A stretch of DNA of 64,000 nucleotides from a virus. Each line of letters starts with the position of its first letter. Position 1 is the first letter of the stretch. The stretch spans positions 1-64,000 of the IMG/VR virus record IMGVR_UViG_3300023179_000106, one strand, 5' to 3'. This document shows positions 24,660 to 58,635 of the stretch, one piece after another. The position numbers and the translations under genes were made by a program. A model generated the notes under the pieces. That model was not told where the DNA came from. It searched no databases and saw nothing but the letters and a program-made list of their open reading frames with translations.

Positions 24660-24908
24660 ATGGCGAGGGACATCGAGTTTCGATCCGAATCCGGCAGGAT
24701 ATTGATAGACGGCGAGCCCTTCGACTGGGGGCTTGACGACGAAGCCATCGAAGAGGCCAACAGGCACGCCGGCACGCCTCGCTTCATGAAGGCGATACAC
24801 AACGACATCATGGGTCACTTCCTTGACTCGTTGTCCGAGGTCTTGGGCTTCAGGCCGTCAATGAAGCAGGTAAACGAGGGTCTAGACAGGGGCTTCATAT
24901 CTAAATGA
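24660..24908 (+). CDS. Small hypothetical protein
   Basis: An 82-residue acidic protein with an AGGAG ribosome-binding site close to the ATG. It appears helical and has no cysteines or membrane segments. It overlaps the SET-domain gene by ATGA, so the two may be co-translated. No family recognised. Confidence 0.7.
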   Translation: MARDIEFRSESGRILIDGEPFDWGLDDEAIEEANRHAGTPRFMKAIHNDIMGHFLDSLSEVLGFRPSMKQVNEGLDRGFISK

Positions 24909-25435: not shown

Positions 25436-26279
25436 CATTCCGCAGGTGCTCTACGAGCCGAACCAGCCGTACCACTATCACTACGACAACCTGCCCCTCC
25501 GCAACATCCTCGCGAGGATCGGGCTGGTCAACATACAGGTCGACACGAACACGGACATGTTGCGCGGGGCGGCTGGCGACGCCGGTTCGCTGAACGCCCG
25601 ATTGGCCGAGGCTCTGGAGTCGGACGGCTCAATCAAAACCTCCGCAGTCGATTCGGCTCTTCATGGGATAGGGCACCATTCGGACGGGCCCGGGCCCGAC
25701 GGCGTAGAGTACGTAAGGATGAAGGAGGCGGAAAGGGCCAAGCTCTTATCCGTGGAGAGTTCCGCCAACAAGCTGACTATTTCCGTGGAGGACGATTTTC
25801 CCACCATCGGCGACACGGTCGAAATACTCAACGGAACAGTTAGCCTGCGGGGCTCTTCCAGCATATTCTTCGACTTCGAGGCTCCCAACATCGTTCGGGC
25901 ACACTCTGCGTTCCCGCCGGATACCGCCCATCGGCACCATTACGGTCGTGAGCCAGTATTGTTGGCCAATTCTTCGTCTTCGTCGTCCAGCTTGTCTAAC
26001 TATGCGACGACTTCGGTCTCCACGCCCTACGCGGAGGGGACTCTGCGCGTTTATGTGAACGGCGTGCGTCTCTCGAACTCTTCTGTGCCCGTGCCCAACA
26101 GCGACGGGAGTTCATTCGCCGCCACGCACGTCGTATCGGAGGAGCCTTCCGAAGGCCACTTCTCCTTGAACAGGCCGCTCGACGAGTCGGAAGTCATAAG
26201 GATAGATTTTGACGAGAAGTTTGTTGCCTCGTCATCTTCATCTTCAAGTTCATCTTCATCGTCGAGTTCATCTTCCTAA
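25419..26279 (+). CDS. Virion-type protein with poly-serine C-terminal tail
   Basis: A 286-residue protein. The N-terminus contains YEPNQPYHYHYDNLPLRNI, which looks like a virion attachment region. The middle is mixed alpha/beta, with a run of serines near residue 187. The protein ends in an almost pure serine tail of about 16 residues. The tail is encoded by varied Ser codons (TCA, TCT, TCG, AGT), so selection for serine rather than simple slippage is suggested. It starts inside the SET gene. It probably belongs to the fibre or head-decoration set and may be a glycosylation substrate, which is speculation. Confidence 0.75.
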   Translation: MPQINNIPQVLYEPNQPYHYHYDNLPLRNILARIGLVNIQVDTNTDMLRGAAGDAGSLNARLAEALESDGSIKTSAVDSALHGIGHHSDGPGPDGVEYVRMKEAERAKLLSVESSANKLTISVEDDFPTIGDTVEILNGTVSLRGSSSIFFDFEAPNIVRAHSAFPPDTAHRHHYGREPVLLANSSSSSSSLSNYATTSVSTPYAEGTLRVYVNGVRLSNSSVPVPNSDGSSFAATHVVSEEPSEGHFSLNRPLDESEVIRIDFDEKFVASSSSSSSSSSSSSSSS

Positions 26280-36683: not shown

Positions 36684-36693
36684 GGTGTACAAA

Positions 36694-37713
36694 ATGAGGA
36701 TCGGATTCGACTGTGGCACTTATCATCTGGTGAGCTGCAAAAGGGGCGAGGACAACGCCTTGTCGTACAAGAAAGAAGTTAACGCTTTCCTTCAGATGCC
36801 GTTGGACAACCGCTTCGTCTTCAACATGATGAAGAACGCGGGAGTCCCTTTGATCGAGCAGCCAGAGGCCAACGTGGGCTACGCCCTAGGCGAGGCTGCC
36901 GTGAACATGGCCTACACTATGACTCAAATCGAACTCAAGAGGCCCATGAAGGACGGATGCCTCAACCCCAAGGAGAAGCACGCCCAGCAGATAATGAATG
37001 TCATGTGCCACAGCCTCATAGGCGACGTGGACGAGGACGGCTCCCTTCTGTACTACTCGGTTCCCGCGAACGCCATCAACCAAGAGACCGACGCCGACTA
37101 TCACGGCAAGGTGTTGGAGGCGATGTTCAAGTCATACAGAAGCGAGAAGGGATACCGCGTGGAGCCTCACCCCATCAACGAGGCCTTGGCGCTCGTGTAT
37201 GCGGAACTGCAGGGCAAGGCTTGGACGGGCGTGGGGATCAGCTTCGGGGCCGGAATGGTGAACCTCTGCTATGCCATGTACGGGGCTCCGATATTTCAGT
37301 TCTCCCTGGTGAACAGCGGCGACTGGATCGATAAGATGGCGTCCAAGGCCATCGGAGAGGATACGACCACCTATGTGAACAGGGAAAAGATGCACGCCGA
37401 CCTGACCGTGGAACACCCGGAGACCCTGGTCCAGAGGGCCATAAAGTCCCAGTACGAGATAATGATCCAGCACACCGTGGCGGGCATCAAGAAGGGCGTC
37501 GAGGAGGCGGGCAACAAGGCTCGATCCGAACAGCCAATAGACATCGTCATAGCTGGCGGCACGAGCATGCCGAAGGGCTTCGACGTTCTGTTCAGGAAGA
37601 TACTCGAGCAGGCGAAGATAACGAACATGAAGATCGGGGAGGTGATCCGCCCGGCGGATCCGCTATTCTCGGTGGCGCGCGGCTGCCTGATCGCCGCAGA
37701 AAACGCGAAGTAG
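36694..37713 (+). CDS. Actin/Hsp70-like ATPase (ParM/MreB-type fold)
   Basis: A 339-residue protein with the three nucleotide-binding motifs of the actin-Hsp70-sugar kinase superfamily: phosphate-1 IGFDCGTYHLV at residues 3-13, phosphate-2 ISFGAGMVNLCYA near 182, and the adenosine motif IVIAGGTSMPKGF near 285. Family members bind ATP and either polymerise (ParM, MreB, Alp) or act as chaperones. The length fits ParM/MreB better than Hsp70. A role in genome or virion positioning is a hypothesis. ATG 36694 is chosen because GAGGTG lies at a proper distance. GTG 36685 is the alternative. Confidence 0.85.
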   Translation: MRIGFDCGTYHLVSCKRGEDNALSYKKEVNAFLQMPLDNRFVFNMMKNAGVPLIEQPEANVGYALGEAAVNMAYTMTQIELKRPMKDGCLNPKEKHAQQIMNVMCHSLIGDVDEDGSLLYYSVPANAINQETDADYHGKVLEAMFKSYRSEKGYRVEPHPINEALALVYAELQGKAWTGVGISFGAGMVNLCYAMYGAPIFQFSLVNSGDWIDKMASKAIGEDTTTYVNREKMHADLTVEHPETLVQRAIKSQYEIMIQHTVAGIKKGVEEAGNKARSEQPIDIVIAGGTSMPKGFDVLFRKILEQAKITNMKIGEVIRPADPLFSVARGCLIAAENAK

Positions 37714-39408: not shown

Positions 39409-40257
39409 ATGATACTTCGAAGACTAGAAAATGGCAATTCCGCCCTCTATCACCTCATGAACATCGAGCACATATCCGTGTCGAGGGGCAAGTCCTATAG
39501 GCAATGCCCATACTACTACAAACTCAAGTACCACGACAAAATACCTAATCCGGGCGAGGAGCAGTTCTATTTCGTCTACGGCAAGATAATCCACAAAATA
39601 GCCGAATGCCACGTGGCAGAGGAGGGTGCCAGGAGCATCAAGGAGATATCCAAGGAGGTGCTTGGCGGGAAGATCGAACTAGAGCACGGGAAGTTCGCGC
39701 CTCCTTTGCCGCCGGAGTTCAGAAGTCGTCTGCCGGGGCATCTCAAGGCCTTGGAGAGGCTCAACAAGAAGATCGGATGCTCCGGAATCACGGAGCACAA
39801 ATTCAGGTACGACCTGGAGATCCCCAACTGCAAGTATGTGACGGGTTTTATCGACCGTATCATACTGAAGGAGGGCAAGGCGTGGATAATCGATTACAAG
39901 ACCACGAAGAAGGGCCCGTTCAGGGAGGATAAGAAAACCATCAAGTACGACCCCCAGCTTCGGATCTATTCCAGGGTCGTGCAGAAGGAGTTCGGGATAG
40001 ATCCGAAGGACATCAGGGCCGCGTTGTTCTACCTTGAGGACGAGGAGATCATAGACGCTTCGTACTCGGAGGAGTCTCTGGAGGCGGCCGAAAGAGAACT
40101 TCTGGAGTTGTACGACTCTATAAGCTCGCACCGGGCCGAAGACGCCAGGGGAATAACGGGACAGCACTGCAAGCGGTGCGAATACAGAGACATGTGCCCC
40201 TTCTTCAAGAACAGCCAGAGAAAGGTCTATTGGAACGGCGACCTGTCGTCTCTCTGA
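39409..40257 (+). CDS. PD-(D/E)XK nuclease (Cas4/RecB/AddB-like, Fe-S cluster)
   Basis: A 282-residue exonuclease-type protein. The N-terminal ISVSRGKSYRQCPYYYKLKY contains the first cluster cysteine, GFIDRI near residue 146 gives the catalytic Asp, IIDYKTTK near 161 the D-x-K, and HCKRCEYRDMC near 253 the three last cysteines of a 4Fe-4S cluster. Such proteins process DNA ends and could act in replication or recombination. ATG 39409 is used. ATG 39457 is an alternative, since homology to the family begins there. The stop overlaps the convergent serine protease gene. Confidence 0.87.
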   Translation: MILRRLENGNSALYHLMNIEHISVSRGKSYRQCPYYYKLKYHDKIPNPGEEQFYFVYGKIIHKIAECHVAEEGARSIKEISKEVLGGKIELEHGKFAPPLPPEFRSRLPGHLKALERLNKKIGCSGITEHKFRYDLEIPNCKYVTGFIDRIILKEGKAWIIDYKTTKKGPFREDKKTIKYDPQLRIYSRVVQKEFGIDPKDIRAALFYLEDEEIIDASYSEESLEAAERELLELYDSISSHRAEDARGITGQHCKRCEYRDMCPFFKNSQRKVYWNGDLSSL

Positions 40258-41111
40258 TTTCGGTTCGATGGTCTGGGCACGAAGTGCCTGTCGTACCTCG
40301 CCTCTGGATTCTCTCTGTCGACCACCGGTATCGCGGACGGGTCGAAGGCCGAAGAAAGAAGCCAGGCGTGTGCGTTTTTCGTGAACACCTCGCTGATCGC
40401 GGAGAGCGGCGTGAAGAATCCGATCCCGTCGCCCGAAGATACGTCGGAAGTACCCCAACACACGCCCACAAGTAGCCCGTCGTCGGTGAGCAGCCCTCCA
40501 CCCGACCTGCCCGGGCGCGGGCTGTTCAGCCTCGTTACGAGGTCGGCGCCCTCCGTGGACTTCACGACGACTTCGTAGCGCGCGACCTCTTTTCCTCCGT
40601 CGCATCCCATCGAGTTCAGGCGCATTCCGACCTTCGGAGAGAAACCCATCGAGATCGGAGCGAAGGAGCATTCCCAGTCTGGCTTGAACCTGAGTAGGCT
40701 GACGTCTTGTCCTCTCCTGTTGCTCCAGAATAGCACCTCTGCCTCGTAGGAGGCGGGAGAGGCCAGCCTGGGTCCATCCTGATACCAGGTGGTTATTTTG
40801 GCTCGCTCCATTCCGTTCGGGCTGTAGTCCATATCTCCGCTCCACAGGTGGCCGCAGGATATTACATAAGCCCATCCCGTTTCCCTGTCGTAATGGCATA
40901 TGGTTCCGGAGCCCGCCGCGCCGTGGACGGAAATTCTCACGGAAACCATCAGCAGGTTCTGGAACCTCTCGTCCCTTTGCTCGTTTAGTATGCACGGGCT
41001 GTAGGAGCAGGACTCCCTGTATAGGGGGTGCTCAGGGGCGACGGGCGAAGCCGTCGCAGACGATGCCCAAGAGAGGGCTAGAATGATCCCCAGAAGCAAA
41101 ATCCTTTTCAT
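40227..41111 (-). CDS. Secreted trypsin-like serine protease
   Basis: A 294-residue protein with an N-terminal Sec signal peptide (MKRILLLGIILALSWASS, likely cut after ATA near 21). The chymotrypsin-like triad is visible: His88 in YVISCGHLW, Asp136 in QDVSLLRF and Ser203 in PRPGRSGGGLL. It resembles Trypsin-2/Deg-type proteases without PDZ domains. The C-terminus carries a tail with RHFVPRPS at residues 276-282, shared with the cysteine protease encoded nearby. Start ATG 41111 is preferred over an ATG 15 bases upstream because GGAGG lies 8 bases away. It probably acts in the host periplasm. Confidence 0.88.
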   Translation of the reverse strand: MKRILLLGIILALSWASSATASPVAPEHPLYRESCSYSPCILNEQRDERFQNLLMVSVRISVHGAAGSGTICHYDRETGWAYVISCGHLWSGDMDYSPNGMERAKITTWYQDGPRLASPASYEAEVLFWSNRRGQDVSLLRFKPDWECSFAPISMGFSPKVGMRLNSMGCDGGKEVARYEVVVKSTEGADLVTRLNSPRPGRSGGGLLTDDGLLVGVCWGTSDVSSGDGIGFFTPLSAISEVFTKNAHAWLLSSAFDPSAIPVVDRENPEARYDRHFVPRPSNRNQRDDRSPFQ

Positions 41112-41139
41112 ATTTTCAGCCTCCATGCCGTACTAGTTT

Positions 41140-41147
41140 TATATAGG
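41140..41147 (+). promoter_or_regulatory. Bidirectional TATATAGG promoter-like element
   Basis: TTATATAGG lies in the short gap between the divergent serine protease gene and the gene at 41155, with the reverse strand reading CCTATATAA. The plus-strand ATG is only 7 bases downstream, so the transcript would be nearly leaderless. Confidence 0.45.
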
Positions 41148-41154
41148 TTTTACG

Positions 41155-41670
41155 ATGTCCAATAATCTCGCCCTGTTCGTCACTCACCACGTATTTTTGA
41201 CCGACCACGAAATCTCGCTGGCCGTTTGCGGTCGCTCGCTGCGGAAGATCGGACACTGCGTCCCCGTGTGGGTTGATGCAAAAACTGGCAAGACGACGGA
41301 GCCGGCCAAAGAGGTTTTTTGCGACTATCACTTGGCGGGGATATCGGAATCCTCCGGCGAGGTGAAATTGGAAGGCGACGCGACATTCAGAATCATGCTG
41401 CCGAACGCGGGTGCTTGGAAACCGCCGCAGGAGTTGGACTTCGCCGAAATGGCCGAGTGGACGAGCGAGATGAGGCTTGAATTTATGAAGCAGAGGGATG
41501 CATGGTGGTTCAACAACCCCAGGCCATCGGACTTCAAAGACCTTGCTCGTGGATACCTGCGTTTCGAGGTGAGGAAACAGGATTTGAAGCTGGGGCGCAG
41601 GAAGTACTCGGCACAGCACGTGGTCGAGATCGCGTCTGAAAAAAGGTTGCTTGACTCCCTAACAGCCTGA
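41155..41670 (+). CDS. Hypothetical protein
   Basis: A 171-residue protein without recognised domains. The N-terminus (LALFVTHHVFLTDHEISLAV) is beta-rich and the C-terminus (DLARGYLRFEVRKQDLKL) is charged. There is no signal peptide. It is divergent from the serine protease gene and shares its promoter gap, and overlaps the convergent downstream gene by 12 bases. A link to the protease, such as an inhibitor, is only a guess from its position. Confidence 0.65.
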   Translation: MSNNLALFVTHHVFLTDHEISLAVCGRSLRKIGHCVPVWVDAKTGKTTEPAKEVFCDYHLAGISESSGEVKLEGDATFRIMLPNAGAWKPPQELDFAEMAEWTSEMRLEFMKQRDAWWFNNPRPSDFKDLARGYLRFEVRKQDLKLGRRKYSAQHVVEIASEKRLLDSLTA

Positions 41671-42165
41671 AAGCGACATGGCCATCCGTATGGATATTGT
41701 CTCCCCCGGAGACACGACGAGGTTCTGGCCTATGTTCGCGGACGATATGAGAATGGTTCCGCTTCCGTAGTCCACTCCTGTGCTCATGAAGATGTTCCGA
41801 ACCGGACCCCACGACTCCGTGGTGGATGTGAACAAGACCGTCGGGCTGTTGGCCTGGTTGCCCGTCGGAGCAGACGTGACATCGAAGTTGTCGGATCGGA
41901 TCGCCTGACGCTCGTAACCACCTGCGTCGGGCTCCAAGCCTTCCAGGGTGGCTATGGTGTCCGACGCCGAAATCGAACTCCTTGAGTCCAAGCCGAGATA
42001 GTACTGGTTCGGTATCTCGCCTCCCGCGAACAGAACTCGCAGTATGTAGTCCTCTCCAAGCACGTGCATCGTGTTAAGTATGTTCCGTTCCGTTCGCAGG
42101 ACGCTTCCGGTGCGGGATGTATGCACCAGTTCGACTATACGCATGATTCCATTCCACTTCTTCAT
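41659..42165 (-). CDS. Hypothetical virion-type protein
   Basis: A 168-residue beta-rich protein with no signal peptide. It contains GEDYILRVLFAGGEIPNQYY, SISASDTIATLEGLEP and a GYERQAI motif, which recall fibre- or capsid-decoration proteins found once per phage genome. It is alone on the minus strand between two protease-containing regions. The start is ATG 42165. Family not certain. Confidence 0.65.
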   Translation of the reverse strand: MKKWNGIMRIVELVHTSRTGSVLRTERNILNTMHVLGEDYILRVLFAGGEIPNQYYLGLDSRSSISASDTIATLEGLEPDAGGYERQAIRSDNFDVTSAPTGNQANSPTVLFTSTTESWGPVRNIFMSTGVDYGSGTILISSANIGQNLVVSPGETISIRMAMSLSGC

Positions 42166-42213
42166 GACCTAATTTAGGCCCGCTGGCATCCTTTTTGATC
42201 GGAGGCGGTGCAG

Positions 42214-42223
42214 CATAAATAGG
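42214..42223 (+). promoter_or_regulatory. CATAAATAGG late-promoter-like element adjacent to ATG
   Basis: CATAAATA is followed by GGTC and then ATG 42226. The same arrangement occurs before 57961. No Shine-Dalgarno sequence lies at normal distance, so a leaderless transcript is likely. Confidence 0.55.
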
Positions 42224-42225
42224 TC

Positions 42226-42408
42226 ATGGAATTCAAGAGGTGGCTGGCGGAGGTTGGCATGGGGGGCGGAGGGCCGGGTTCTGGGATGGCGCCGCCGCTC
42301 CAGAGGCCCGGAGTGGAGGCCCTTGCTGATTATCAGGGCCCTGAGCAGACCGATCCCAGAAATCCCAAGGGGAAGCTGCCCCCGACAAAAAGGAAAATCA
42401 AGAAATGA
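42226..42408 (+). CDS. Small Gly/Pro-rich protein with F..WL signature
   Basis: A 60-residue protein starting MEFKRWLAEVGMGGG. Residues 12-60 are Gly-, Pro- and Lys-rich and probably unstructured, ending in a basic PPTKRKIKK tail. The N-terminus matches the signature seen on several other proteins in this window. It overlaps the cysteine protease gene by ATGA, so they are probably co-translated. Confidence 0.6.
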   Translation: MEFKRWLAEVGMGGGGPGSGMAPPLQRPGVEALADYQGPEQTDPRNPKGKLPPTKRKIKK

Positions 42409-43124
42409 GGTCAGCATTCGCATTTCTTCTGGTGGTGTTCGCACATGTGGCTCTGGCCTCTGATGGGGACGCGATCGCCAGGTACAAGGTGGCTACCGAG
42501 GATTTTTCGTCCGAAAAAGCCCACATCAACACGGTTGTGCCGGCATATGTGTCCTCTGGTCGGGACGAGCCGGTAGAGACGCTTCAGTGCCCGATACCCC
42601 GCTCCGACCGAGTGAAGAACTTCACGGGCATTCAGTGCGTGTGGTCGTCCATAGAGACGCTCGGCAGATGGGCGGGGGAGGAGAGGCTCATGATCCCTCC
42701 GCTAACCAGCAGGGCGCAATGCAAGAGTTACTCCGGCCCCGACAAGTCCGCAACGGTCATGAAGTCGTTAGGGGTCAGATTCTCGCAGACTTACGGCGAC
42801 AAAAGGAAGGGCGTGGAGATGATAAGGGCTGCAATGGAGCAGGGTCGCGGAGCTCTTTTTGACGTCCCGGGCCACGCGATGGTGCTTGTGCACTTCGACG
42901 AGGCCGGGGACAGGGCTTGCTGGATCGACAATTCCGACGAGACGCTCAAGGTTCAGAAGAGCACGGTCGCGGCCTTCATGAAGAGGTGGGGGTCGTGGGT
43001 TCTAGTCATCTACGCAGAGCAGGAAATCGTGCAATATAAGGCATATGGGCCATTTATGCCCGTGATGGAGGCCGAACCTCCCTTTCTTCGACTCGAGGGA
43101 AATTTCGTGCCCCGTCCTCACTAA
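42405..43124 (+). CDS. Secreted cysteine protease-like protein (papain/C39-like pattern)
   Basis: A 239-residue protein with a signal peptide (MRSAFAFLLVVFAHVALAS) and a Cys-His-Asn order seen in papain-fold peptidases: Cys78 in FTGIQCVWSSIETLG, His157 in VPGHAMVLVHFDE and Asp175/Asn176 in CWIDNSDE. The Cys-containing helix and the GHA strand fit C39 or transglutaminase-like enzymes. The protein ends EGNFVPRPH, repeating the FVPRP tail of the secreted serine protease. Function in the host envelope is inferred from the signal peptide. The ATG overlaps the upstream stop. Confidence 0.78.
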   Translation: MRSAFAFLLVVFAHVALASDGDAIARYKVATEDFSSEKAHINTVVPAYVSSGRDEPVETLQCPIPRSDRVKNFTGIQCVWSSIETLGRWAGEERLMIPPLTSRAQCKSYSGPDKSATVMKSLGVRFSQTYGDKRKGVEMIRAAMEQGRGALFDVPGHAMVLVHFDEAGDRACWIDNSDETLKVQKSTVAAFMKRWGSWVLVIYAEQEIVQYKAYGPFMPVMEAEPPFLRLEGNFVPRPH

Positions 43125-43129
43125 ATAAC
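43121..43129 (+). promoter_or_regulatory. CTAAATAAC promoter-like element
   Basis: CTAAATAAC lies 4 bases before the ATG at 43134 and overlaps the stop of the cysteine protease gene (TCACTAAATAAC). The same string occurs in the loop of the hairpin upstream of 57311. Confidence 0.4.
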
Positions 43130-43133
43130 AAAA

Positions 43134-44939
43134 ATGAATCCCGAAGAGCTCAAAAGTCAGATAAGTCAGGTTGTTGACCTATGGGTCAGCGACATACTGC
43201 GTTCCAAGTTCCTCCAGAAGCCCGACAACCAGGAGAGAAGGAGCCTGTGGGACAAGTTCAAGCAGGGGATGACGAACTGGTGGTGGGGCAGGAACGGGGA
43301 AAAGTACAACCCCTACAGGTGGAGGAACAGGTTCGGCGACGAACTGGGGGTGTCCGAATCCTTCGATCCAGCCGTATTTACCTTGAACGAATACAAGAAC
43401 ATAAAGACTCTGGTTGATTCGGTCGAGGTCGGGTTCAACGAGTCCGAAGAGGGATTCGACAACCTTCGCCTTATGCAGATCGTTCGCTCCGCAGCCGAAC
43501 GTCTAAAGGAAATGCTTTTCGACGCACTGCGTGGCAGAGTGCAGGCCGCCGAACAGCCGGCTCAGGGGGCTCCATCTGCCGAACGGCCGCCGCAGTCACG
43601 ACCAAGCCCCCGCACAGGGCTCGTACAGGATCCCAAGGCGACATCTGGTGGTTCGGGAGAATCTTCTGACGGTGGTCAGGAAGGAGCCATGGGACTCGTT
43701 AAGGCCTCCGCAGTTGGAAGCACGGAGGCTGACTTGTCGTCTAGACCCAAGAGGAAGAGCGACCGCGCGAAGATCGAAGATGGCGCCCGCGAGGTCGCCG
43801 CGATGCCGAAGTCGGAGCTGAAGCCCGAAGCCACTTGGCTTAACCTAAAAAACCAAGTCAAGAAGGAAAAGCTCCCTCATGTAATCGCTTGGATGGCAAT
43901 GAAGTCGCACAAAAACCCGCTTGATGACGAAGAAATCAAGGGAGAACTACAACTGGCGCTGGGGAAGAAGGTCGACCTTGGAATCCGCGGTGCGGGCAAG
44001 ATAAAACTGAAGAGTTACCTGCAGCAAGTTCTTGACGATAAGTTCGAAAAGATGATGTCGCTTTTAGGTGTGGAGGTCGCGGGCTCCATCGGCTCCGCCG
44101 CACGGGAGCCCGCAAAGCGAACCAACCCCCGAACCGTTCCGCTCAAAGCGCCCAAAAAGACGCCCGAAAAGAAAGAGCCAGAGAATTCAAAGCCAGCGGC
44201 AGATCCAGTCAGTGAGCCCCCGGCCCGCGAGCCCAAGCAAGAACCAGAGGGCGGCGACGACGATCAACTCAAGGGCTACCTCTATGAGGGCGATCGCCCA
44301 AAGACGATAAATTCTGTCATGTCGCTCCTCCGCGACTTTGTCAAGCAAATCGGTCATGAGAGGAACAAGGTAGATGATGTGAGGAGTTGGTGGTCTTCGG
44401 AGATCAAAAGACTGGAGGGCATTCCGAAGGCCGACAAGTTCGAATACCTAGAGGCAGCCATCTTGGGGTCGGGCGAGTATGTCGACGCTATCGCCAAGGC
44501 GGTGGGCATGTCTTCTGGCGACCTGCGCAACAAGATGAAAGATTTCTTGGGTTCGGAAGGCGCCGCTTCCAAAACCACGCCTTCCGACGAAAAGACCGCA
44601 GACGAGGTGGACGAGTCTCTAGGGATCGACTCGTATTTGATGACCGACGGCAAGCCACACGGCCTAGAAAGGACTTTGAATCTCATCGGGCGTTTTATGA
44701 ACAATCCAATGGCCCTCATCAATGTGGGTCAGGACGACGCTCGGGTAAGAAGACTTGCAGAATGGTGGGACAGGGAGAAAGAGTCAATATCTAAAAATAG
44801 CGACCCCATGGGATACATCAAGAAAAGTCTTACGGAAGACAAGTCGTGGTTCAAGTCCGTTGGAGAAATATTAGGTAAATCGCCAGATTTCGTCAAGAAT
44901 ATTATGGCTTCTCATATAAAAAGAAAATCGAATCGATAA
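43134..44939 (+). CDS. Hypothetical multi-domain protein with disordered linkers
   Basis: A 601-residue protein. Three helical blocks (about 1-130, 240-330, 400-601) are separated by low-complexity linkers rich in Pro, Ser, Lys and Glu, at residues 135-230 and 330-395. Tryptophans are frequent in the first block (MTNWWWGRNG). The gene is more A/T-rich than its neighbours, which may indicate separate acquisition. There is no catalytic motif. The two C-terminal blocks look like internal duplicates (YLEAAILGSGEYVDAIAKAV and YIKKSLTEDKSW, then VGEILGKSPDFVKN). Function unknown. Confidence 0.75.
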   Translation: MNPEELKSQISQVVDLWVSDILRSKFLQKPDNQERRSLWDKFKQGMTNWWWGRNGEKYNPYRWRNRFGDELGVSESFDPAVFTLNEYKNIKTLVDSVEVGFNESEEGFDNLRLMQIVRSAAERLKEMLFDALRGRVQAAEQPAQGAPSAERPPQSRPSPRTGLVQDPKATSGGSGESSDGGQEGAMGLVKASAVGSTEADLSSRPKRKSDRAKIEDGAREVAAMPKSELKPEATWLNLKNQVKKEKLPHVIAWMAMKSHKNPLDDEEIKGELQLALGKKVDLGIRGAGKIKLKSYLQQVLDDKFEKMMSLLGVEVAGSIGSAAREPAKRTNPRTVPLKAPKKTPEKKEPENSKPAADPVSEPPAREPKQEPEGGDDDQLKGYLYEGDRPKTINSVMSLLRDFVKQIGHERNKVDDVRSWWSSEIKRLEGIPKADKFEYLEAAILGSGEYVDAIAKAVGMSSGDLRNKMKDFLGSEGAASKTTPSDEKTADEVDESLGIDSYLMTDGKPHGLERTLNLIGRFMNNPMALINVGQDDARVRRLAEWWDREKESISKNSDPMGYIKKSLTEDKSWFKSVGEILGKSPDFVKNIMASHIKRKSNR

Positions 44940-44957
44940 GAGCCTTGGAAGATTAGA

Positions 44958-45401
44958 TCAAGAGCTCTCCCAGTCGTCTTCGTCTTCGTCTTCGTCTTCC
45001 CAATCATCTTCGTCTTCGTAGTCGTCCCAGTCGTCCTCGTCCTCGTCCTCCCAATCTTCATCTTCGTCGTCTTCTTCATCTTCGTCGTCTTCGTCGTATT
45101 CGTCGTCTTCTTCATCTTCGTCGTCTTCTTCATCTTCGTCGTATCCGCGCCAATCATCGGCATCGTCGTCTTCATCTTCATCATCCTGATCGTCTTCAAG
45201 GATTTCCTCGTAGTCTTCTTCGTCCTCATCGCCGTAAGAAGCTTCCTCCCAACTCCATTCCGCTATGTATTGGAGACGAGACGGCTCATGCGGACTTTCT
45301 GATGTCTGATCGGACTTTGCGCTTGCAGAAGCCCACTCTTCATACCACCCAGTGCCGTATATGTCATCGGCAGACTCTTCGAAATCCTCTCTGAAGTGCA
45401 T
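44958..45401 (-). CDS. Extremely acidic protein (possible DNA-mimic)
   Basis: A 147-residue protein. Residues 1-55 look ordinary (MHFREDFEESADDIYGTGWY). Residues 57-145 are almost entirely Asp and Glu punctuated by Trp and Tyr, for example EDWEDEDEDDWDDYEDEDDW. The start ATG 45401 has AAGGAG upstream. The composition recalls DNA-mimic anti-restriction proteins and histone-chaperone tails, but there is no fold evidence. The nucleotide repeat (GAC/GAA triplets) suggests triplet expansion. It ends 18 bases from the convergent gene at 44939. Confidence 0.75.
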   Translation of the reverse strand: MHFREDFEESADDIYGTGWYEEWASASAKSDQTSESPHEPSRLQYIAEWSWEEASYGDEDEEDYEEILEDDQDDEDEDDDADDWRGYDEDEEDDEDEEDDEYDEDDEDEEDDEDEDWEDEDEDDWDDYEDEDDWEDEDEDEDDWESS

Positions 45402-45506
45402 CCTTTGAATGTCTCCTTTAGGGCTTTAAACTTACCAATAGAATCTAGCTGAGTCAAGGCCGGTTTAGGGCTTTGGCGGTCGTTATGTATGCGCCTCAAA
45501 CTCTTT

Positions 45507-46229
45507 TCAGCGCATGAATTTACGAACCAGTTTGCCTCCCGACTCCTCCCACATGCCGTCGGACAGGGCCTGGGCGACGCAAGCCGCGGAGGCCAAGCGG
45601 GCCTCTTTTGGGTCGTGCACGACCTCGTCGACCAGCTTGCCTGACGGGTCGAATTCGTAGTAGGAATCCGAGGCGATCTCCACCTCTAGGTCTGGGCTCA
45701 CATTGAGCACAGAGACGACTGGCAGGTCTGATATCTTGGCGTATTTCGGCTCCCTGACCGCCACGATCGCGCCTCCGCCCTTCGTTTTGACGACCTTGTC
45801 GCCCCGATTGAGGCCGACGAGAACCTCGGCCCAGGACTTCGAAGAAAGCGCCTTGATTTCGTTGGGCTCCACTATCTTCCAAGCCACAAACACTTCCCGG
45901 AAAATGTTCGATATGTCCGCGCCTTGATCTTTTGCGCAGGCCACCATGCATTTCGCCGCGGCCGAATAGTACTTGGGCGTTCTGGGGGTGAGGGGCACGG
46001 CCTTGAGCAGGACGGAAAAGCATATGTCTCTGGCCTTCTTGAACGCCACGGACCTCGCGTCTCCTTTGGCCACAAGGGAGTCATAGACCTTGGTGAATGC
46101 GTTGTACCAGGCTGCCGAAAAAACCCTTCCGAAGCTGTGGCACTCCGCCGCTAGCTTGTTGTTGGATGTTTCGGCGGGAAGCTTGGACGGGTCGACGTAC
46201 AGGAAAAGCTCTCTGGCGGGGTCGCGCAA
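45507..46229 (-). pseudogene. C-terminal half of a frameshifted thermolysin-like metalloprotease
   Basis: Read alone this frame gives 240 residues from TTG 46229 (LRDPARELFLYVDPSKL). The frame remains open further upstream, and its reading between about 46250 and 46229 (DPSYLPNALRDPARE) joins sensibly to the N-terminal half encoded at 46151-46903. It contains CHSFGRVFSAAWYNAFTK near residue 31, matching the H..G..F..A.Y block of thermolysin-type (M4) peptidases. The C-terminal third (150-240) is beta-rich and may be a separate domain. A -1 shift in reading (or a one-base deletion) is needed to join the halves. Confidence 0.65.
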
Positions 46230-46903
46230 GGCGTTGGGGAGGTAGGACGGGTCTTGGTGACGGCCCTTATGAGTTCGCCGACCTCTTCGGCAAGGCGGGA
46301 GGCGGAGTTGGAGAGCCTCAGGTCGCCGCCCGTTTCCTTGAGTACCTTTTCTATCACCGCGTCATAATTCATGAGATTGAACATCGCCACGATGTCGGAG
46401 AACGCCTCGTGGAACGACCATATCTCGAGAGCCTGGACGCTCCAGAAGTCGGGTCTCATAGAGTCGAGCACGGCGTGTCCCAGTTCGTGCGTCACTATGT
46501 CCGAGGAGTCTGCGAAGTATGTGTTTTTGCCCCTGTAGTTGTAGTAGAAGAACCTGAGGGAACGCCTGTCGTAGTACGCGTTCATTTCTACCCCGGCCGC
46601 CGGAATCACGGAAAGAGAGCTGGTGGCCGCCCACCGCTGCAGGGGCGACTTCAGCAGGGCCTGGATCGCGTTTATGCAGGATCCCACGGAGATGTGGCAG
46701 TTGAGGGCCCTTCTTTCGCTGGCGTTTTTTGGCTGCGGCGACAGGCCTTGAACCGAGTATTTCAGAGCCCCAATGGCGGGCGGCTGGACGTTCGCTACCA
46801 GGTCGGGGGTGGTGGGGTCGTTTATCACGAAGCCTCCAACCATGTTGACCAGTTCCGCGCGTATCTTTGCGAGGCGTCCCGCCTCCGTGGTTTTCTTGAG
46901 CAT
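46151..46903 (-). CDS. Thermolysin-like (M4) metalloprotease, N-terminal half, frame changes near 46255
   Basis: A 250-residue frame starting ATG 46903 with AAGGAGG 4-5 bases upstream. The zinc-binding HELGH is at residues 139-143 (SDIVTHELGHAVLDSM) and the third ligand Glu at 166 in WSFHEAFSDIVAMF, the hallmark of M4 peptidases. There is no signal peptide. The frame is protein-like until about residue 220 (LIRAVTK), after which it degenerates to low-complexity Thr/Pro/Ser, while the overlapping frame continues the family homology. The gene may be a pseudogene, need programmed frameshifting, or contain a sequence error. Confidence 0.72.
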   Translation of the reverse strand: MLKKTTEAGRLAKIRAELVNMVGGFVINDPTTPDLVANVQPPAIGALKYSVQGLSPQPKNASERRALNCHISVGSCINAIQALLKSPLQRWAATSSLSVIPAAGVEMNAYYDRRSLRFFYYNYRGKNTYFADSSDIVTHELGHAVLDSMRPDFWSVQALEIWSFHEAFSDIVAMFNLMNYDAVIEKVLKETGGDLRLSNSASRLAEEVGELIRAVTKTRPTSPTPCATPPESFSCTSTRPSFPPKHPTTS

Positions 46904-46925: not shown

Positions 46926-46935
46926 CATATATACG
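46926..46935 (+). promoter_or_regulatory. CATATATACG promoter-like element between divergent genes
   Basis: CATATATACG lies between the divergent metalloprotease (start 46903) and MscL-like (start 46953) genes. A perfect AGGAGG follows it at 46941. The core is symmetric, so it may serve both directions. Confidence 0.4.
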
Positions 46936-46952: not shown

Positions 46953-47570
46953 ATGATGGATTCCTTCCACTCGCACGAAAGAGCGTTCATCGGACGAATA
47001 GGGGAGAAAGAATGGAGGGAATACAAGAGATTCGCCTTCAGGGACGACATGCTGAAGCTGAGCGTGGGAGTCGTGCTCGGAAGCGCATTCAACAAGGTGG
47101 CAAACAGCATTTCCGACAACCTCTTGATGCCCGTTCTGTCGTTCCTCGCGCTTGATGCCGGGGAGGCCTGGAGGGACTGGTCTTGGAGTCCTCTGGTCGG
47201 CCTGAACTTCAGGCTGGGGCGGGTTGCGGGAGACGGGTTCGACTTTCTTATCGTTTCGGTCGCCCTCTATCTCGTTTATGTCAAGATGGCCGGTTTTGGG
47301 CCGAAAGAGCCCCCTCCATGCAGGCGGTGTCGCCTGTGCATGGAGTGCGTGAACCCCGAGGCGGTCAAATGCAGGTCTTGTGGAGGAGAACTAGATGGCG
47401 TCGAAAGAAGAGATCGAGTCGAGGATAAAGGAACAAAGGACGGCGGAGGCGAACAAAAAAGGACTGATGGGTCAAGGAGGAAAGATCGGAACCGTGCTTC
47501 GGATGCTGGGAAGTCCGATAGTCGGCCAGTCGGAAGACGTCGCGTTCCTCGATCTCGAGGGAAGGGGTGA
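46953..47570 (+). CDS. mscL: MscL-like mechanosensitive channel with zinc-ribbon-like tail
   Basis: A 205-residue protein. Residues 24-112 align by eye with large-conductance mechanosensitive channels: an N-terminal amphipathic helix, TM1 LKLSVGVVLGSAFNKVANSI near 35-53, and TM2 DGFDFLIVSVALYLVYVKM near 94-112. The DFLIV motif in TM2 is characteristic. Residues 123-143 carry C..C..C..C and a later C..C pair, a possible metal ribbon. The last 60 residues are charged, rich in Arg, Lys, Asp and Gly, and overlap the next gene. It would pass ions and small solutes under membrane tension. A role in lysis or osmotic protection is inference. Confidence 0.85.
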   Translation: MMDSFHSHERAFIGRIGEKEWREYKRFAFRDDMLKLSVGVVLGSAFNKVANSISDNLLMPVLSFLALDAGEAWRDWSWSPLVGLNFRLGRVAGDGFDFLIVSVALYLVYVKMAGFGPKEPPPCRRCRLCMECVNPEAVKCRSCGGELDGVERRDRVEDKGTKDGGGEQKRTDGSRRKDRNRASDAGKSDSRPVGRRRVPRSRGKG

Positions 47571-48826: not shown

Positions 48827-49297
48827 TCAACGTCTTCCTTCAAGCATCTCCAAGATGTTGTCGGCGTCCGCTCGGCTGTCGAGAATCTGGTCTTCCAGGA
48901 ACAACGCGACATACATCCCGTCGACGGAGTCCTCGGGCGACGAGGCCGCCAGCTCCTCGGCCTGCGCATGGCGCAGGACGTAGTTCTGCACGACTTGATC
49001 TTCAAGCGCCAGCGCGGAACGGAGGATTTCCGCTGGGTCCGACGACTTGACCTGAAATTCCCCGACGGCACTGGGGACTGACGGGTCTAACCCGCGGCGG
49101 GTCGCGATGCCGTGAATCAGCCTGCGGAACTGTTCGATGTGCTTCATTTCCCCGGAGGCCTGCTCCAGGAAGAACTCCGACATTTCTTCGCGGTGCAGGC
49201 CACGCACGGTGGTGGCGGCCTGCATGTAGAAGTGCCAGTGTGCGTACTCATTCGCCAGGTCGACCTTCAGGAGGCCAACCATCTCGTCAATCTTCAT
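48827..49297 (-). CDS. Ferritin-like / bacterioferritin-like protein
   Basis: A 156-residue four-helix protein. Helix A contains NEYAHWHFYMQAA, helix B contains EQASGEMKHIEQFRRLI (the E..H metal site), and later helices contain LALEDQVVQNYVLRH and LFLEDQILDSRADADNIL, giving the repeated E-x-x-H/E pattern of ferritin-like di-iron proteins. Bacterioferritins and DPS-like proteins oxidise and store iron and protect DNA. ATG 49297 is chosen because the homology starts there. The start overlaps the upstream gene by 11 bases. Confidence 0.8.
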   Translation of the reverse strand: MKIDEMVGLLKVDLANEYAHWHFYMQAATTVRGLHREEMSEFFLEQASGEMKHIEQFRRLIHGIATRRGLDPSVPSAVGEFQVKSSDPAEILRSALALEDQVVQNYVLRHAQAEELAASSPEDSVDGMYVALFLEDQILDSRADADNILEMLEGRR

Positions 49298-49583
49298 TTT
49301 CAATGTCCTTTCTTGGGCTGAACTTGGGCTCTCCTTGTCCGTCGAAGCCAACTATGCTGACCGAGCCGGACAAGAAATTCTTCCACAGTATTTCGCCGAT
49401 CCTAACGGATCCGCACCACTGTATGACCTTGAATATGTCGTCCAGTTCTTTGATGTCCTGGAGTACGCATGCGGCGATTATGTCGTCCATCTCCTCGCGC
49501 GAGAGAGAAACATACTTGCCCTCCTCCTCGCACCAGTGGAGGTCGTCGGCGGGTATGATGTTGTTGATTACGTATTTATACAT
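49287..49583 (-). CDS. Hypothetical protein
   Basis: A 98-residue acidic protein from ATG 49583, which has AAGGG at 7 bases. ATGs at 49604 and 49607 in the same frame would add 7-8 residues including CPQGH. Two helical segments (DDIIAACVLQDIKELDDIFK, IQWCGSVRIGEILWKNF) suggest a small helical bundle. A TATAAATA string lies just inside the frame. The stop overlaps the ferritin-like start. Confidence 0.6.
   Translation of the reverse strand: MYKYVINNIIPADDLHWCEEEGKYVSLSREEMDDIIAACVLQDIKELDDIFKVIQWCGSVRIGEILWKNFLSGSVSIVGFDGQGEPKFSPRKDIENED
49573..49580 (-). promoter_or_regulatory. Exact TATAAATA (T4 late consensus) on the minus strand
   Basis: The sequence TATAAATA is present on the minus strand directly after the ATG at 49583. 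It could drive the downstream ferritin-like gene about 280 bases away, or it may be coincidental, since it lies inside an open frame. Confidence 0.3.
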
Positions 49584-52041: not shown

Positions 52042-52770
52042 TCAAGACGGTAGTCTTTGGCTGATCTTTGCCACTCCCCATTCTGACCCCTTGTTCGCCA
52101 CATAGTCTTGTCTTATTGCCGCATCCTCGCATATGTTCTTGCTCAGATCCATCGTCTCCCGTATGTCCTTGAGTTGGCAGTTCGCTGTTCTGACCTCGTT
52201 GGAATGGGCGATGCAGGAAAGGACCGGCGGGGCGACAAAAAGCTCCAGCCTGTTGTGCATGCGAACCCTGAACTGGTAGTTGGTGTCGTCGTACCCCCAG
52301 CCTAGGTTTATGCTCTCGTCGTAGCCGTTGACGGAATAGAAGTCCTCCCTCGTCGCCCCAATGAATCCCGCGCATCCGTTGTTTCCGTTCGCATCCTCGC
52401 TTGCGAACGACATCACTATCCTTTTGTTCGCGAAAGACCGCTCGACGAACTCGCAGAACCCATTCGGCATCGTGATGTCCGAGTCGAGGTTGCACAGGAT
52501 GTCGCCTCCCGCGGCCCTGTGGGCTATGTTCTTGGCGTGTGCGGCGACCCAGTACCGAGGCTCGTCGGTTCTCAAGAAACGAAGCATGCCGGAATCAAGG
52601 TAGGAAGACAGATTTTCTGAAACCCACTTGCCCACTTCGTCCTTCCCTCCGTAGTCGAGAAGCACGAACTCTACGTTGCCGTACGACTCGCACGCCTTCA
52701 GGTTCTTGGGGTAGGTCTCCTTGAGGTGGAAGAGTCGATCCATGCACGTGGTGCAGAAGGATATTTTCAA
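52042..52770 (-). CDS. Glycosyltransferase family 2-like protein
   Basis: A 242-residue GT-A enzyme. Residues 1-15 (LKISFCTTCMDRLFHL) give the first strand, ILCNLDSDITMPNGF near 92-105 contains the D-x-D metal site, and NLGWGYDDTNYQFRVRM near 170 matches the acceptor-side W-G-Y-D-D motif seen in galactosyl/N-acetylgalactosaminyltransferases. It would transfer a sugar to an acceptor that cannot be named. The TTG start overlaps the stop of the oxygenase gene (TTGA), with GGAG at the proper distance. Confidence 0.88.
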   Translation of the reverse strand: MKISFCTTCMDRLFHLKETYPKNLKACESYGNVEFVLLDYGGKDEVGKWVSENLSSYLDSGMLRFLRTDEPRYWVAAHAKNIAHRAAGGDILCNLDSDITMPNGFCEFVERSFANKRIVMSFASEDANGNNGCAGFIGATREDFYSVNGYDESINLGWGYDDTNYQFRVRMHNRLELFVAPPVLSCIAHSNEVRTANCQLKDIRETMDLSKNICEDAAIRQDYVANKGSEWGVAKISQRLPS

Positions 52771-53399
52771 GCGTTCTCCTTGAAGAAGCCCACCACGGAA
52801 GCGCGACAGTGATCGCCCGCGTCTGCGTCCACCCTGTTTATGCTGTGCCATACGCCGGCCCTCGTCAGCACCAGCCTGTTTGGCTTGCAAGTCACGTAAG
52901 TTCCTATGCCGTAGGTGGCAAGGAAGCCGTCCTCGTACCTGTGGTCAAGATGGGGGTGAACGAAGTTCTCTTCGCGAGGCGTCTTGGCGAGGAGCAGTTC
53001 GCCGCCCCAAGTGCTGGCCCATTCGGGGTGGACATAGTATATGACGGCCCCTGTGTACCCTTGGTCGTTGTGCCAGGAAAGCTTGGTGCCCCGCGGGTAG
53101 AGGTAGGCCCTGACGGTCAGAGCCGCCCAGTTCGGCACAAGCGAAGGATGGGCCTTGGCCACGTTTGTGAACATCACGTTCATGAGGTCGATGTAGTTGC
53201 CGTAAGGGCACCCCGAAGCGTCGTAGTTCTTGCCGCCGATGCATGTCCCGTCTGTGAGCCGCCAGACCTTCGACCACCCGGATATGTGAGGCATGAGGTA
53301 CTCCTCCTGCTGCACGGCAGTCCAAAGCGCGTCGAACTGGGTTTTCTCGAGCACATCGTCGTACACGACGAAGTCTTCAGTCTCCATCAATTTTATCAT
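52767..53399 (-). CDS. 2-oxoglutarate/Fe(II)-dependent oxygenase (prolyl-hydroxylase-like)
   Basis: A 210-residue double-stranded beta-helix enzyme. The iron ligands are visible as H-x-D in KLSWHNDQGYTG near residue 110 and the distal His in GVWHSINRVD near 183, with the 2OG-binding Arg in HCRASVVGF near 195. GGELLLA after the first motif is typical. It would hydroxylate a protein or small molecule. It is translationally coupled to genes on both sides (sulfotransferase-like upstream, glycosyltransferase downstream), implying a shared modification pathway. Confidence 0.9.
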   Translation of the reverse strand: MIKLMETEDFVVYDDVLEKTQFDALWTAVQQEEYLMPHISGWSKVWRLTDGTCIGGKNYDASGCPYGNYIDLMNVMFTNVAKAHPSLVPNWAALTVRAYLYPRGTKLSWHNDQGYTGAVIYYVHPEWASTWGGELLLAKTPREENFVHPHLDHRYEDGFLATYGIGTYVTCKPNRLVLTRAGVWHSINRVDADAGDHCRASVVGFFKENA

Positions 53400-54044: not shown

Positions 54045-56546
54045 ATGGCGTGGTGGGATTTCTACAGGCTTTGGACTTACCAGTTCGAGAAGGGACCACT
54101 TGAGAAGCTCGACAACCGCAATCTGACGGGTGCGGGCGTCGTCGTGCCCGACGCCATGCCAGACCTCCGCAGCGACGCCTACGGCGACGCGAGGAGTCAG
54201 ATCAGGCTCCACGACAGCAACGACTTCATCGACCTGAGCACCGTCACAAACCGCCAGAGCCGATACAAGGAGTACGAGAGGCTCAGGAGCGTGGCGGAGG
54301 TCGAGATGGCCATGACCGTCATCAGCGACGAGGCCTGCGTCCACGGCGACACCCGTATCTCCACCCTTTTCGACGGACAGAAGACCATACGCTGGCTCAC
54401 CGAGAGGTGGAAGAAGAACCCCAGTCCGTTCCTGGTCTACTGCTGGGACTTCTCCAAGGAGGACTACACACTCGGGTGGGCCTACGAACCCAGGATCGTC
54501 AAACGGGACAAGACCGTGAAGGTGCTGCTGGACGACGGCACGAGGTTCGTGGTCACGCCGGACCACAGGATACTCACACGCGACCAGAGGTGGGTGGCCG
54601 CCGGCGACCTGAAGAAGGGCGACGAGCTCATGCCGTTCTACCGCCTGCAGCCGAACAAGAAGCTGAATAGGCTGCGTACGGGCCAGTTCCCCAGAATATT
54701 CACGTTCGACGGCTGGAAGCACGAGAGGCAGTTCATAGACGAGTGGAAGGGCGAGGGGGAGCGGTACGGAAAGGTCGGGATGGCGACGAAGCTCCTCGCC
54801 TCGGGGTTCAGCACCAGGAAGGTGGGGAGCATCATGAAGCACTCCTGGAACAGCGTCAGGGACTGGATCGGCAAGGAAGGGTTCAACACCAAGGAGCTCA
54901 AGTGGCTCGGGCGGATGAACGACAGAAGGCGCGTGGTCGGCGTGATAGAGGGCGAGGACGCCGAGGTCTACGACCTCAGCGTAAGGGAGCACGAGAACTT
55001 CTGCACCGACGGCGTGGTGATGCACAACTGCCAGAAGAACGACAAGGGCGACATCTTCAGGATATCGTGCGAGGACGAGCAGGTTCGCAAGGAACTCGAG
55101 TTCCTTTGCTTCAACAGGAAGATGCTGAACCTGAACCGCAGGGCGTGGCAGATGGTAAAGAAGCTGTGCATATTCGGCGACGCCTTCTACGAGCTGGTGA
55201 CGGATCCGGAGGAGCCCAAACAGGGCGTGCTGAAGATGCAGGAGCTCCCTCCCGACAGCATGTTCAAGATCGTAACCACGAAGGGGCGGGTGGTCGAGTA
55301 CCAGCAGAGCAAGGAGGGCCCCGACTACCAGGCCCTCACGAGGAGCTCCGTCACGACGGCTTCGGAGCAGGAGCTCATGCAGTCCAATGCGATAAGGTTC
55401 GCCCCCAGCCAGGTGATCCACATATACCTCGGCGACGACAGGAGGACGTTCTACCCCTACGGGCAGAGCCTCATGGAGCCGGCGAGGGGGCCGGCCCACC
55501 AGCTGCGTCTGATGGAGGACGCCATGCTCGTGTACCGGCTCGTAAGGGCCCCGGAGCGCAGGATATTCTACATCGACGTCGGGCAGCTCCCGCCGTACAA
55601 GGCCGAGGCCTTCGTGGAGAGGATGAAGGACCAGTTCAGGAAGAAGAAGGTGCAGACGGGACGCGGAACCGGGGCCAACGCCGTCGACGAGAGGTGGCAC
55701 GCCCCGGCGGCCGACGAGGACTACTGGATACCGATCCGCCCGAACGCAAACACGAGGATAGAGACGCTGCCCGGCGCCCAGAACCTCGGAGAGATCGACG
55801 ACGCCATCTACTTCAGGAACAAGCTCTTCACCGCCCTGAACTTCCCGAAGAACTACATGAACAACGAGGACGCGGGGGCGACGAGGATAACGCTCAGCGC
55901 CCAGGACGCAAGGTTCGCGAGGATGGTGGAACGCATACAGTCGAGCGTCGAGGACGGCATCCTTGAGATATGCGAGAGGCACCTCGAGATGAGGGGCTTC
56001 CCGGCGGAGGCCTACGAGGATCTCAAGATCGAGATGACCCCGCCGAGCAGCTGGAAGGAACTGAGCGAGGCAGAGATCATGAACAACAGGATCAGCGTGG
56101 TCACCTCGCTCAAGAGCAGCATGCTGATGAGCGACTTCGACCTTCTCACCCGATACATGCGGGTGTCTGAGGAGGAGGCTCAAAGGATAATCAGCCGCAA
56201 CAAGATCCAGAAGCTCGAGGATCTCAAGATACAGATCATCGGCCAGAACCCGCAGCTCCTCGGCGTGGGTGTGCCTGGCTCCGACTCCGGGGGCCCCGAG
56301 ATGGGCGCGGAGATGGGCGGGCCGACGCCAGACATCGGCGGGGACCAGCCCCTCGGCATGGACGGGCCGCCTGAAGGTGGTGGCGAGCAACCAGAGCTAG
56401 AGGGACTACCGAAAGAAGAGGGCGACGAGGCGCCGCCGGAGCTCCCCGATCCGACAGACGAGGAGATCAAGAAGTACGACCTCGGCGTTGAGGACTACAG
56501 CAGGGTGATCGACCAGGAGGACATCGACTGGAGCGAGGAGGGTTAG
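54045..56546 (+). CDS. Portal protein (gp20-like) precursor containing an intein
   Basis: An 833-residue precursor. After removal of a 231-residue intein (residues 98-328) a 602-residue portal remains, close to the T4 gp20 range. Portal features are SVAEVEMAMTVISDEA before the intein, FRISCEDEQVRKELEFLC after it, then GQSLMEPARGPAHQLRLMED and AYEDLKIEMTPPSSW. The C-terminus (about 740-833) is acidic and Pro/Gly-rich. Portals form the dodecameric vertex through which DNA is packaged and the neck attaches. Order and synteny with the protease, scaffold and capsid genes agree. Confidence 0.95.
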   Translation: MAWWDFYRLWTYQFEKGPLEKLDNRNLTGAGVVVPDAMPDLRSDAYGDARSQIRLHDSNDFIDLSTVTNRQSRYKEYERLRSVAEVEMAMTVISDEACVHGDTRISTLFDGQKTIRWLTERWKKNPSPFLVYCWDFSKEDYTLGWAYEPRIVKRDKTVKVLLDDGTRFVVTPDHRILTRDQRWVAAGDLKKGDELMPFYRLQPNKKLNRLRTGQFPRIFTFDGWKHERQFIDEWKGEGERYGKVGMATKLLASGFSTRKVGSIMKHSWNSVRDWIGKEGFNTKELKWLGRMNDRRRVVGVIEGEDAEVYDLSVREHENFCTDGVVMHNCQKNDKGDIFRISCEDEQVRKELEFLCFNRKMLNLNRRAWQMVKKLCIFGDAFYELVTDPEEPKQGVLKMQELPPDSMFKIVTTKGRVVEYQQSKEGPDYQALTRSSVTTASEQELMQSNAIRFAPSQVIHIYLGDDRRTFYPYGQSLMEPARGPAHQLRLMEDAMLVYRLVRAPERRIFYIDVGQLPPYKAEAFVERMKDQFRKKKVQTGRGTGANAVDERWHAPAADEDYWIPIRPNANTRIETLPGAQNLGEIDDAIYFRNKLFTALNFPKNYMNNEDAGATRITLSAQDARFARMVERIQSSVEDGILEICERHLEMRGFPAEAYEDLKIEMTPPSSWKELSEAEIMNNRISVVTSLKSSMLMSDFDLLTRYMRVSEEEAQRIISRNKIQKLEDLKIQIIGQNPQLLGVGVPGSDSGGPEMGAEMGGPTPDIGGDQPLGMDGPPEGGGEQPELEGLPKEEGDEAPPELPDPTDEEIKKYDLGVEDYSRVIDQEDIDWSEEG
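54336..55028 (+). other. Intein coding segment within the portal gene
   Basis: The segment encodes 231 residues starting at Cys98 of the precursor (ACVHGDTRI, block A). Block B is GTRFVVTPDHRILTRD, with the T-x-x-H motif, and the C-terminal blocks are YDLSVREHENFCTDGVVMHN, ending His-Asn followed by extein Cys329. The middle (SGFSTRKVGSIMKHSWNSV) looks like a helix-turn-helix linker. No LAGLIDADG or HNH endonuclease motif is evident, so it is a mini-intein or has lost its homing nuclease. Confidence 0.93.
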
Positions 56547-57960: not shown

Positions 57961-58635
57961 ATGTTTGCATTTAGGGAATGGCTCATGAACGAGGCCGCCA
58001 TGGGCCCCAACAGCATCCGTTACGACGCCCAAGGCAGGCCGAACTTCCGAGTTTACATAATGAACGACGGCGGACTCGTAGGCCTTGAGACGCTGCAGAA
58101 TGGCCAATACAAGTTCGCGGGAGACATGTTCAGCAACATCTTCGGGGACTCAAGCCTATTGAGGGGCCGAAAGATATTCAACTGGCATTCCGACCTCCCC
58201 GAGGGTTCGGGCTACGGCCCAATGTTCTACGACATATGCATGGAAATCGCGACGATCAAGGGAGGTCACCTCGCCTCCATGACGCTCGTGAATCGACTCG
58301 CGCTCGTAAGTTCGGGGAAGGACTTCGACTACGAACAGTCGAAAGAGAGGAAGGGCGCCTCCATGGGCGACACGAGCGACAGGGCGGAGCCGATCTATAA
58401 GTTCTATTACGAGAAGAGGGGCGATGTCGAAAAGGTCGACCCCGGTGTCAGGGTGGCCAAGCTGCGAGCCGCGGCGGACAGGGCGGGGATACCGAAAACC
58501 CAGCAGAGCAACCTGAAGGGCCATATGGTCGGAGGCGTTGTGGTCTCCGTCAACAGCAGGAAAGTACGCCTGACGCCCGATGAGGCCGAGAACTTAAAGT
58601 TCGCCCAGGAGTTAGCAAGGAGAATGGGCAACTAG
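57961..58635 (+). CDS. Conserved hypothetical protein with F..WL signature
   Basis: A 224-residue protein beginning MFAFREWLMNEAAMGPNS. The middle segment GSGYGPMFYDICMEIATIKG resembles a conserved motif in phage proteins of unknown function with an acetyltransferase-like flavour, which I cannot prove. A C-terminal helical region contains two basic patches. The ATG lies directly after a late-promoter-like element and has no Shine-Dalgarno sequence. It overlaps the convergent AAA+ ATPase gene by four bases. Confidence 0.7.
   Translation: MFAFREWLMNEAAMGPNSIRYDAQGRPNFRVYIMNDGGLVGLETLQNGQYKFAGDMFSNIFGDSSLLRGRKIFNWHSDLPEGSGYGPMFYDICMEIATIKGGHLASMTLVNRLALVSSGKDFDYEQSKERKGASMGDTSDRAEPIYKFYYEKRGDVEKVDPGVRVAKLRAAADRAGIPKTQQSNLKGHMVGGVVVSVNSRKVRLTPDEAENLKFAQELARRMGN

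Follow-up and report, generated by a model that had tools for sequence, protein, structure and literature searches.

What do three proteases of three catalytic classes do close together in a virus that also encodes a prohead protease, and do they work as one unit? To our knowledge, most of what has been learned about phage proteases concerns capsid maturation, and exported ones have hardly been described. An earlier note on this DNA had proposed that a trypsin-like, a papain/C39-like, and a thermolysin-like enzyme form an envelope- or host-protein-degrading module. The window we analyzed is the whole 64 kb stretch, which makes up most of a 65.7 kb IMG/VR record. Because the nearest relative of its terminase (about 49%) is in LR756511.1, a 595 kb uncultured phage, and because it encodes a T4-type portal with an inserted intein (54045–56546, plus strand; PF14890), a T4-type S77 prohead protease, a baseplate wedge, and a tape-measure protein, we treat it as part of the genome of a huge T4-type phage. 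The genes on which the argument turns are these:

40227–41111, minus strand: SerP, a predicted exported trypsin-like serine protease of 294 aa (H88, D136, S203), called from Trypsin_2, the triad, and a ribosome site
41659–42165, minus strand: conserved neighbor of SerP, with a weak match, below the cut-off, to the phage fiber protein Gp80 (PF23140, E=5.7e-5)
42226–42408, plus strand: conserved 60-aa ORF that overlaps the CysP start (ATGA) and is kept in 8 other contigs
42405–43124, plus strand: CysP, a predicted exported papain-like cysteine protease of 239 aa (C78, H157, N176), called from its residues and a fold match
45507–46229, minus strand: C-terminal part of MetP, in another frame, with a conserved ECHSFGRVF; the break is bridged by the ORFs of relatives
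46232–46903, minus strand: N-terminal part of MetP, thermolysin-like, without an export leader (HELGH at 46489–46475)
61760–62467, plus strand: T4-type prohead protease (S77; PF03420, E=2.1e-28), separate from the other three, which are thus additional to it, as had been claimed

The window also encodes a SET-domain protein (24905–25435, plus strand), a protein with a poly-serine tract at its C terminus (25419–26279, plus strand), and a 2OG-Fe(II) oxygenase (52767–53399, minus strand); a search for anti-phage defense families found none. FxxWLxE-like N termini, at 42226–42408 and 57961–58635 (both plus strand) and in contig L008 (14856–15332), recall T4 capsid-targeting sequences.

The assignments to catalytic classes held when homologs were aligned, and no catalytic residue was lost: the His/Asp/Ser triad of SerP was invariant in 46/46 sequences, C78/H157/N176 of CysP in 10/10, and the HELGH motif and downstream glutamate of MetP in 39/39 relatives. 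SerP matched Pfam Trypsin_2 (PF13365) with E=1.1e-8 and 36.3 bits (curated cut-off 27.6), which together with the triad places it in S1 / Trypsin_2. In the longest ORF the start falls at Met6, which has a GGAGG ribosome site, and the residue numbering proposed earlier is therefore exact. SerP shares the triad, an SGGG oxyanion motif, and predicted export with the Trypsin_2 and HtrA/Deg proteins (PF13365, MEROPS S1), but it does not belong to HtrA/Deg: the HtrA-type equivalog score was 19 bits against a cut-off of 470, and there was no PDZ match. It also differs in being phage-encoded and in bearing a C-terminal tail.

CysP matched no family in Pfam, PHROG, or NCBIfam. Its AlphaFold model (pLDDT 74 overall, about 77–94 across most of the core) matched papain-like CdiA-CT toxin domains and C39 peptidases with a Foldseek probability of 1.0 and TM-scores of up to 0.70 by target length. 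On this model, Cys-His-Asn residues in a papain-like fold identify CysP as a member of papain-like clan CA, in line with the earlier call. It differs from C39 and CdiA-CT proteins in having no sequence-family match, no toxin fusion, and its own leader and tail, and it is probably not a C39 bacteriocin-processing peptidase, since no ABC-transporter domain was found. The 60-aa ORF was considered as a CysP-specific leader ORF and rejected, because it also occurs without CysP. Neither SerP nor CysP had a match among 50,697 deposited phage records.

The claim of an HELGH metalloprotease stood as regards the motif, although a one-base frameshift near 46250–46266 divides the gene in this record. The break is crossed by the ORFs of 53 relatives, and MetP is a single intact frame in about 40. 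A programmed frameshift was rejected because relatives keep the gene in one open frame and no slippery heptamer occurs at GTCACCAAGACC; the frameshift is either a mutation or a sequence error. The model of the homolog in contig L003 (pLDDT 89) matched aureolysin, thermolysin, and M36 proteases, and M4 profile scores were 17.1 bits for the window and 23.0 bits for the L004 homolog (cut-off 22.4). MetP resembles the M4/M36 thermolysin-like peptidases in its HExxH, a downstream E with D four residues on, a later conserved H, and its predicted fold. Unlike them, it has neither an M4-type secretion signal nor a propeptide (91% of orthologs have no hydrophobic leader), and it carries an additional C-terminal domain; the window copy is frameshifted. 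MetP homologs were also found on bacterial MAG contigs L112, L113, and L114 (Eisenbacteria, Eremiobacterota), and the context in L112 looks chromosomal. A very acidic Asp/Glu-rich protein (44958–45401, minus strand) adjoins MetP at a position conserved in L003 and LR756511.

The earlier note had also assigned Sec signal peptides to the first two proteases, and their relatives agree. A hydrophobic N-terminal stretch was found in 95% of SerP and 90% of CysP orthologs, compared with 9% for MetP and 0–10% for other genes of the block. SerP and CysP are thus predicted to carry Sec-type export leaders, and MetP is not. Some leaders look cleavable, including those of both window proteins (predicted c-regions ATA/S for SerP and ALA/S for CysP), and many resemble uncleaved anchors; lipobox-like leaders appear on the CysP of G014 and on a C14 protease described below.

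We then asked how the genes are arranged in relatives. Single-sequence scans with CysP and MetP gave nothing, but alignment-based scans of viral contigs found 56 SerP, 44 MetP, and 5 CysP loci, and profile searches raised CysP to 10 contigs; profiles run against PDB sequences found nothing useful. The conserved gene order is actin-like, small gene, primase, nuclease, SerP, 41155, 41659, (CysP), MetP, (MscL), 47395, 47981, 48479, ferritin-like, terminase. The actin-like protein (36685–37713, plus strand; Pfam Volactin, E=1.4e-62) is kept at the block edge in many contigs, and the ferritin-like protein (48827–49351, minus strand) is a conserved member. Among 58 contigs containing both nuclease and terminase, SerP and MetP occurred together in 25 and all three proteases in 7. 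MetP was present without SerP in 9/58, including the 595 kb phage LR756511, and SerP without MetP within the fetched stretch in 17/58, in one of which (a 532 kb record) MetP is present further along. The MetP-terminase half is inverted in some phages, and CysP there remains with MetP. CysP itself occurs in only part of the clade, lies far from SerP in G002, and is also found in the unrelated contigs L008 and L009.

MetP and SerP are therefore long-standing neighbors in a conserved block, and CysP is a mobile extra. The scatter of CysP and the independent gains and losses show that the genes did not arrive together as a single cassette, and their alternating strands likewise argue against one. 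The proposed three-protease module does not survive these results or the predicted absence of export for MetP. What remains of it is that SerP and CysP, both of them apparently exported, could act on the envelope.

Sequence elements upstream of the genes bear on when they are expressed:

41140–41145, no strand assigned: late-promoter-like TATATA in the region between the divergent genes SerP and 41155
42216–42221, plus strand: TAAATA element preceding the small ORF that lies upstream of CysP
46928–46933, no strand assigned: TATATA in the region between the divergent MetP and MscL genes

TATATA was the most enriched upstream hexamer for SerP (36/49, against 1.2 at random positions), MetP (28/44, against 0.7), and terminase (24/51, against 0.8); with TAWATA the counts were 37/49, 29/44, and 25/51. 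TA[AT]ATA was close to background before primase (3/47 vs 2.0), nuclease (4/47 vs 2.2), actin (2/37 vs 1.8), and ferritin (2/41 vs 2.0). Divergent neighbors share some sites, and so the counts for SerP and 41155, and for MetP and 47395, are not independent. The late promoters of T4 and cyanophages are TATAAATA/NATAAATA (PMC2984593), and in this clade an element like TATAAATA was enriched before SerP, MetP, and terminase but not before the four control genes. Because TATATA resembles the T4 late promoters, SerP and MetP are probably late genes. The case for CysP is weaker, because the element precedes the small upstream ORF (in the window, at 42216, and in L011 and L096). PF16805, the one family searched among the T4 late-transcription regulators gp33/gp55, had no match anywhere, and the controls were silent too. 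The MscL gene that has the TATATA element in common with MetP (46953–47570, plus strand; PF01741, E=6e-15; relatives in 17 contigs) is a phage-encoded mechanosensitive channel that could bear on lysis or osmotic control.

A stronger link than the module came from whole-record profile searches, in which SerP and CysP hit each other at their C termini. Both families end in a common 21-residue tail, IPIxDRNNPQxxYPxDYIPLP, which two further exported families share and MetP lacks. In the window, the tails are:

40269–40331, minus strand: SerP tail, IPVVDRENPEARYDRHFVPRP, clear by tail model and alignment
43056–43118, plus strand: CysP tail, MPVMEAEPPFLRLEGNFVPRP, degenerate, placed by its aligned position (3.5 bits with the SerP tail model)

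With a model built solely from SerP tails, CysP C termini scored up to 34 bits, and none of 10,014 other C termini scored above 6.6. The window CysP tail is assigned by homology to CysPs whose tails are clear and by a shared FVPRP end; the tail is also degenerate on the L008 and L009 CysPs. In L011, CysP (9002–9889) has a poly-serine tract after the tail. We scanned 2.9 million viral contigs with two degenerate DNA patterns that demanded neither a frame nor a stop and that, being designed from SerP and CysP, favored close variants. All 23 stretches recovered were in frame, started within 45 residues of the stop, and lay in exported SerP, CysP, or a third tailed family, CdP, which has the motif IGHG...WWQxSC and is, from this caspase-like motif only, a putative protease. 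When 24 whole records were scanned with profiles, a C14 caspase with both a lipobox and the tail also emerged (PF00656, E=2.4e-9), in a 459 kb record. Across these contigs and records, the tail was found only at the C termini of exported SerP, CysP, C14 caspase, and CdP proteins. No similar tail turned up in 50,697 phage records, and 72,556 plasmid records gave only chance matches (E of at least 3). Two further exported peptidases near the block in relatives, an M14 carboxypeptidase (L126, 9222–10310, E=2.5e-31) and an M28 aminopeptidase (L020, 1724–2845, E=3.4e-47), are, like MetP, without the tail. Tails within one phage were more alike than tails across phages (score 777 vs a mean of 603, reached in 0/20,000 shuffles), a likeness to which shared descent of whole phages contributes.

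The T9SS CTD, LPXTG, and PEP-CTERM signals are likewise C-terminal tags, each shared by exported enzymes with differing folds. The phage tail differs from all three: it is a proline/tyrosine-rich segment of 21 residues that terminates the protein and is followed by neither a TM helix nor an Ig-like domain, and it is phage-encoded and so far found on proteases only. It looks like an unrecognized address or docking tag. We know of no other phage feature in which unrelated exported proteases carry a common C-terminal tag, and a full-text literature search found no such tail or protease set, although it covered few subscription papers and is thus weak evidence of novelty.

We give a probability of about 0.45 to the reading that SerP and CysP are late, envelope-anchored, tag-docked proteases that degrade host envelope proteins near lysis and release, with MetP as a separate cytosolic late protease. 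It draws on the protease folds and families, the invariant catalytic residues, the leaders, the late-type element of SerP, and the common tail. SerP and CysP would be Sec-exported, membrane-anchored or periplasmic enzymes of this huge-phage clade; the tail would dock otherwise unrelated enzymes to one envelope partner; the docked proteases would cleave host proteins of the periplasm or outer membrane as infection draws to a close; and this proteolysis would help lysis and release. A bolder proposal, which we consider rather unlikely, is a tag-addressed proteolytic assembly in the host envelope, in which the 21-residue signal recruits trypsin-, papain-, and caspase-like exported proteases to one partner; if true, the virus would build a degradation complex outside the cytoplasm.

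MetP would be a separate, late, non-exported protease that more likely acts in the cytosol, on virion or host proteins. An uncharacterized conserved zincin-like metallopeptidase of phiKZ-type jumbo phages has a suggested role in virion maturation (PMC7824862), and MetP is likewise a clade-wide phage metallopeptidase. A part in virion maturation, such as Iyer et al. suggest for the conserved peptidases of jumbo phages (PMC7824862), would be consistent with what is seen of MetP, which occurs in most of the clade.

The main rival to envelope degradation near lysis is receptor stripping, or superinfection exclusion, in which the exported proteases cleave outer-membrane receptors and so block competing phages, or the adsorption of progeny to debris, with the tail placing them at the envelope. 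The leaders of SerP and CysP speak for it, and Al-Shayeb et al. suggest that huge-phage envelope proteins affect susceptibility to other phages (PMC7162821); late-type promoters make an early shield less plausible but leave room for stripping before release, and we regard this explanation as unlikely. It is more doubtful still that the genes are unrelated accessory proteases in one block, each with a stabilizing or autoinhibitory C-terminal segment and no shared address. The independent gains and losses speak for this, as do the low confidence of the tail in the CysP model and its decay in some members; but it is kept in nearly all SerP relatives and occurs on four sequence families, always at the C terminus, and a single inhibitor segment for several active-site types is improbable. 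Least probable is a virion role, in which the proteases travel in or on the particle, work during entry or maturation, and are loaded by means of the tail: the late-type promoters, the fiber-like gene beside SerP, the terminase beside MetP, and the argument of Iyer et al. that conserved jumbo-phage peptidases mostly process virion proteins (PMC7824862) favor it, but the Sec-type leaders present on every tagged family are at odds with assembly in the cytosol, and this role suits MetP better than SerP or CysP.

We return to SerP and CysP as proposed tag-docked proteases of the host envelope. Should the tag prove to direct docking or sorting, its sequence could be used to find phage proteins that act on the envelope, together with the host partner, and to test directly how huge phages take apart or protect that envelope at late stages of infection.
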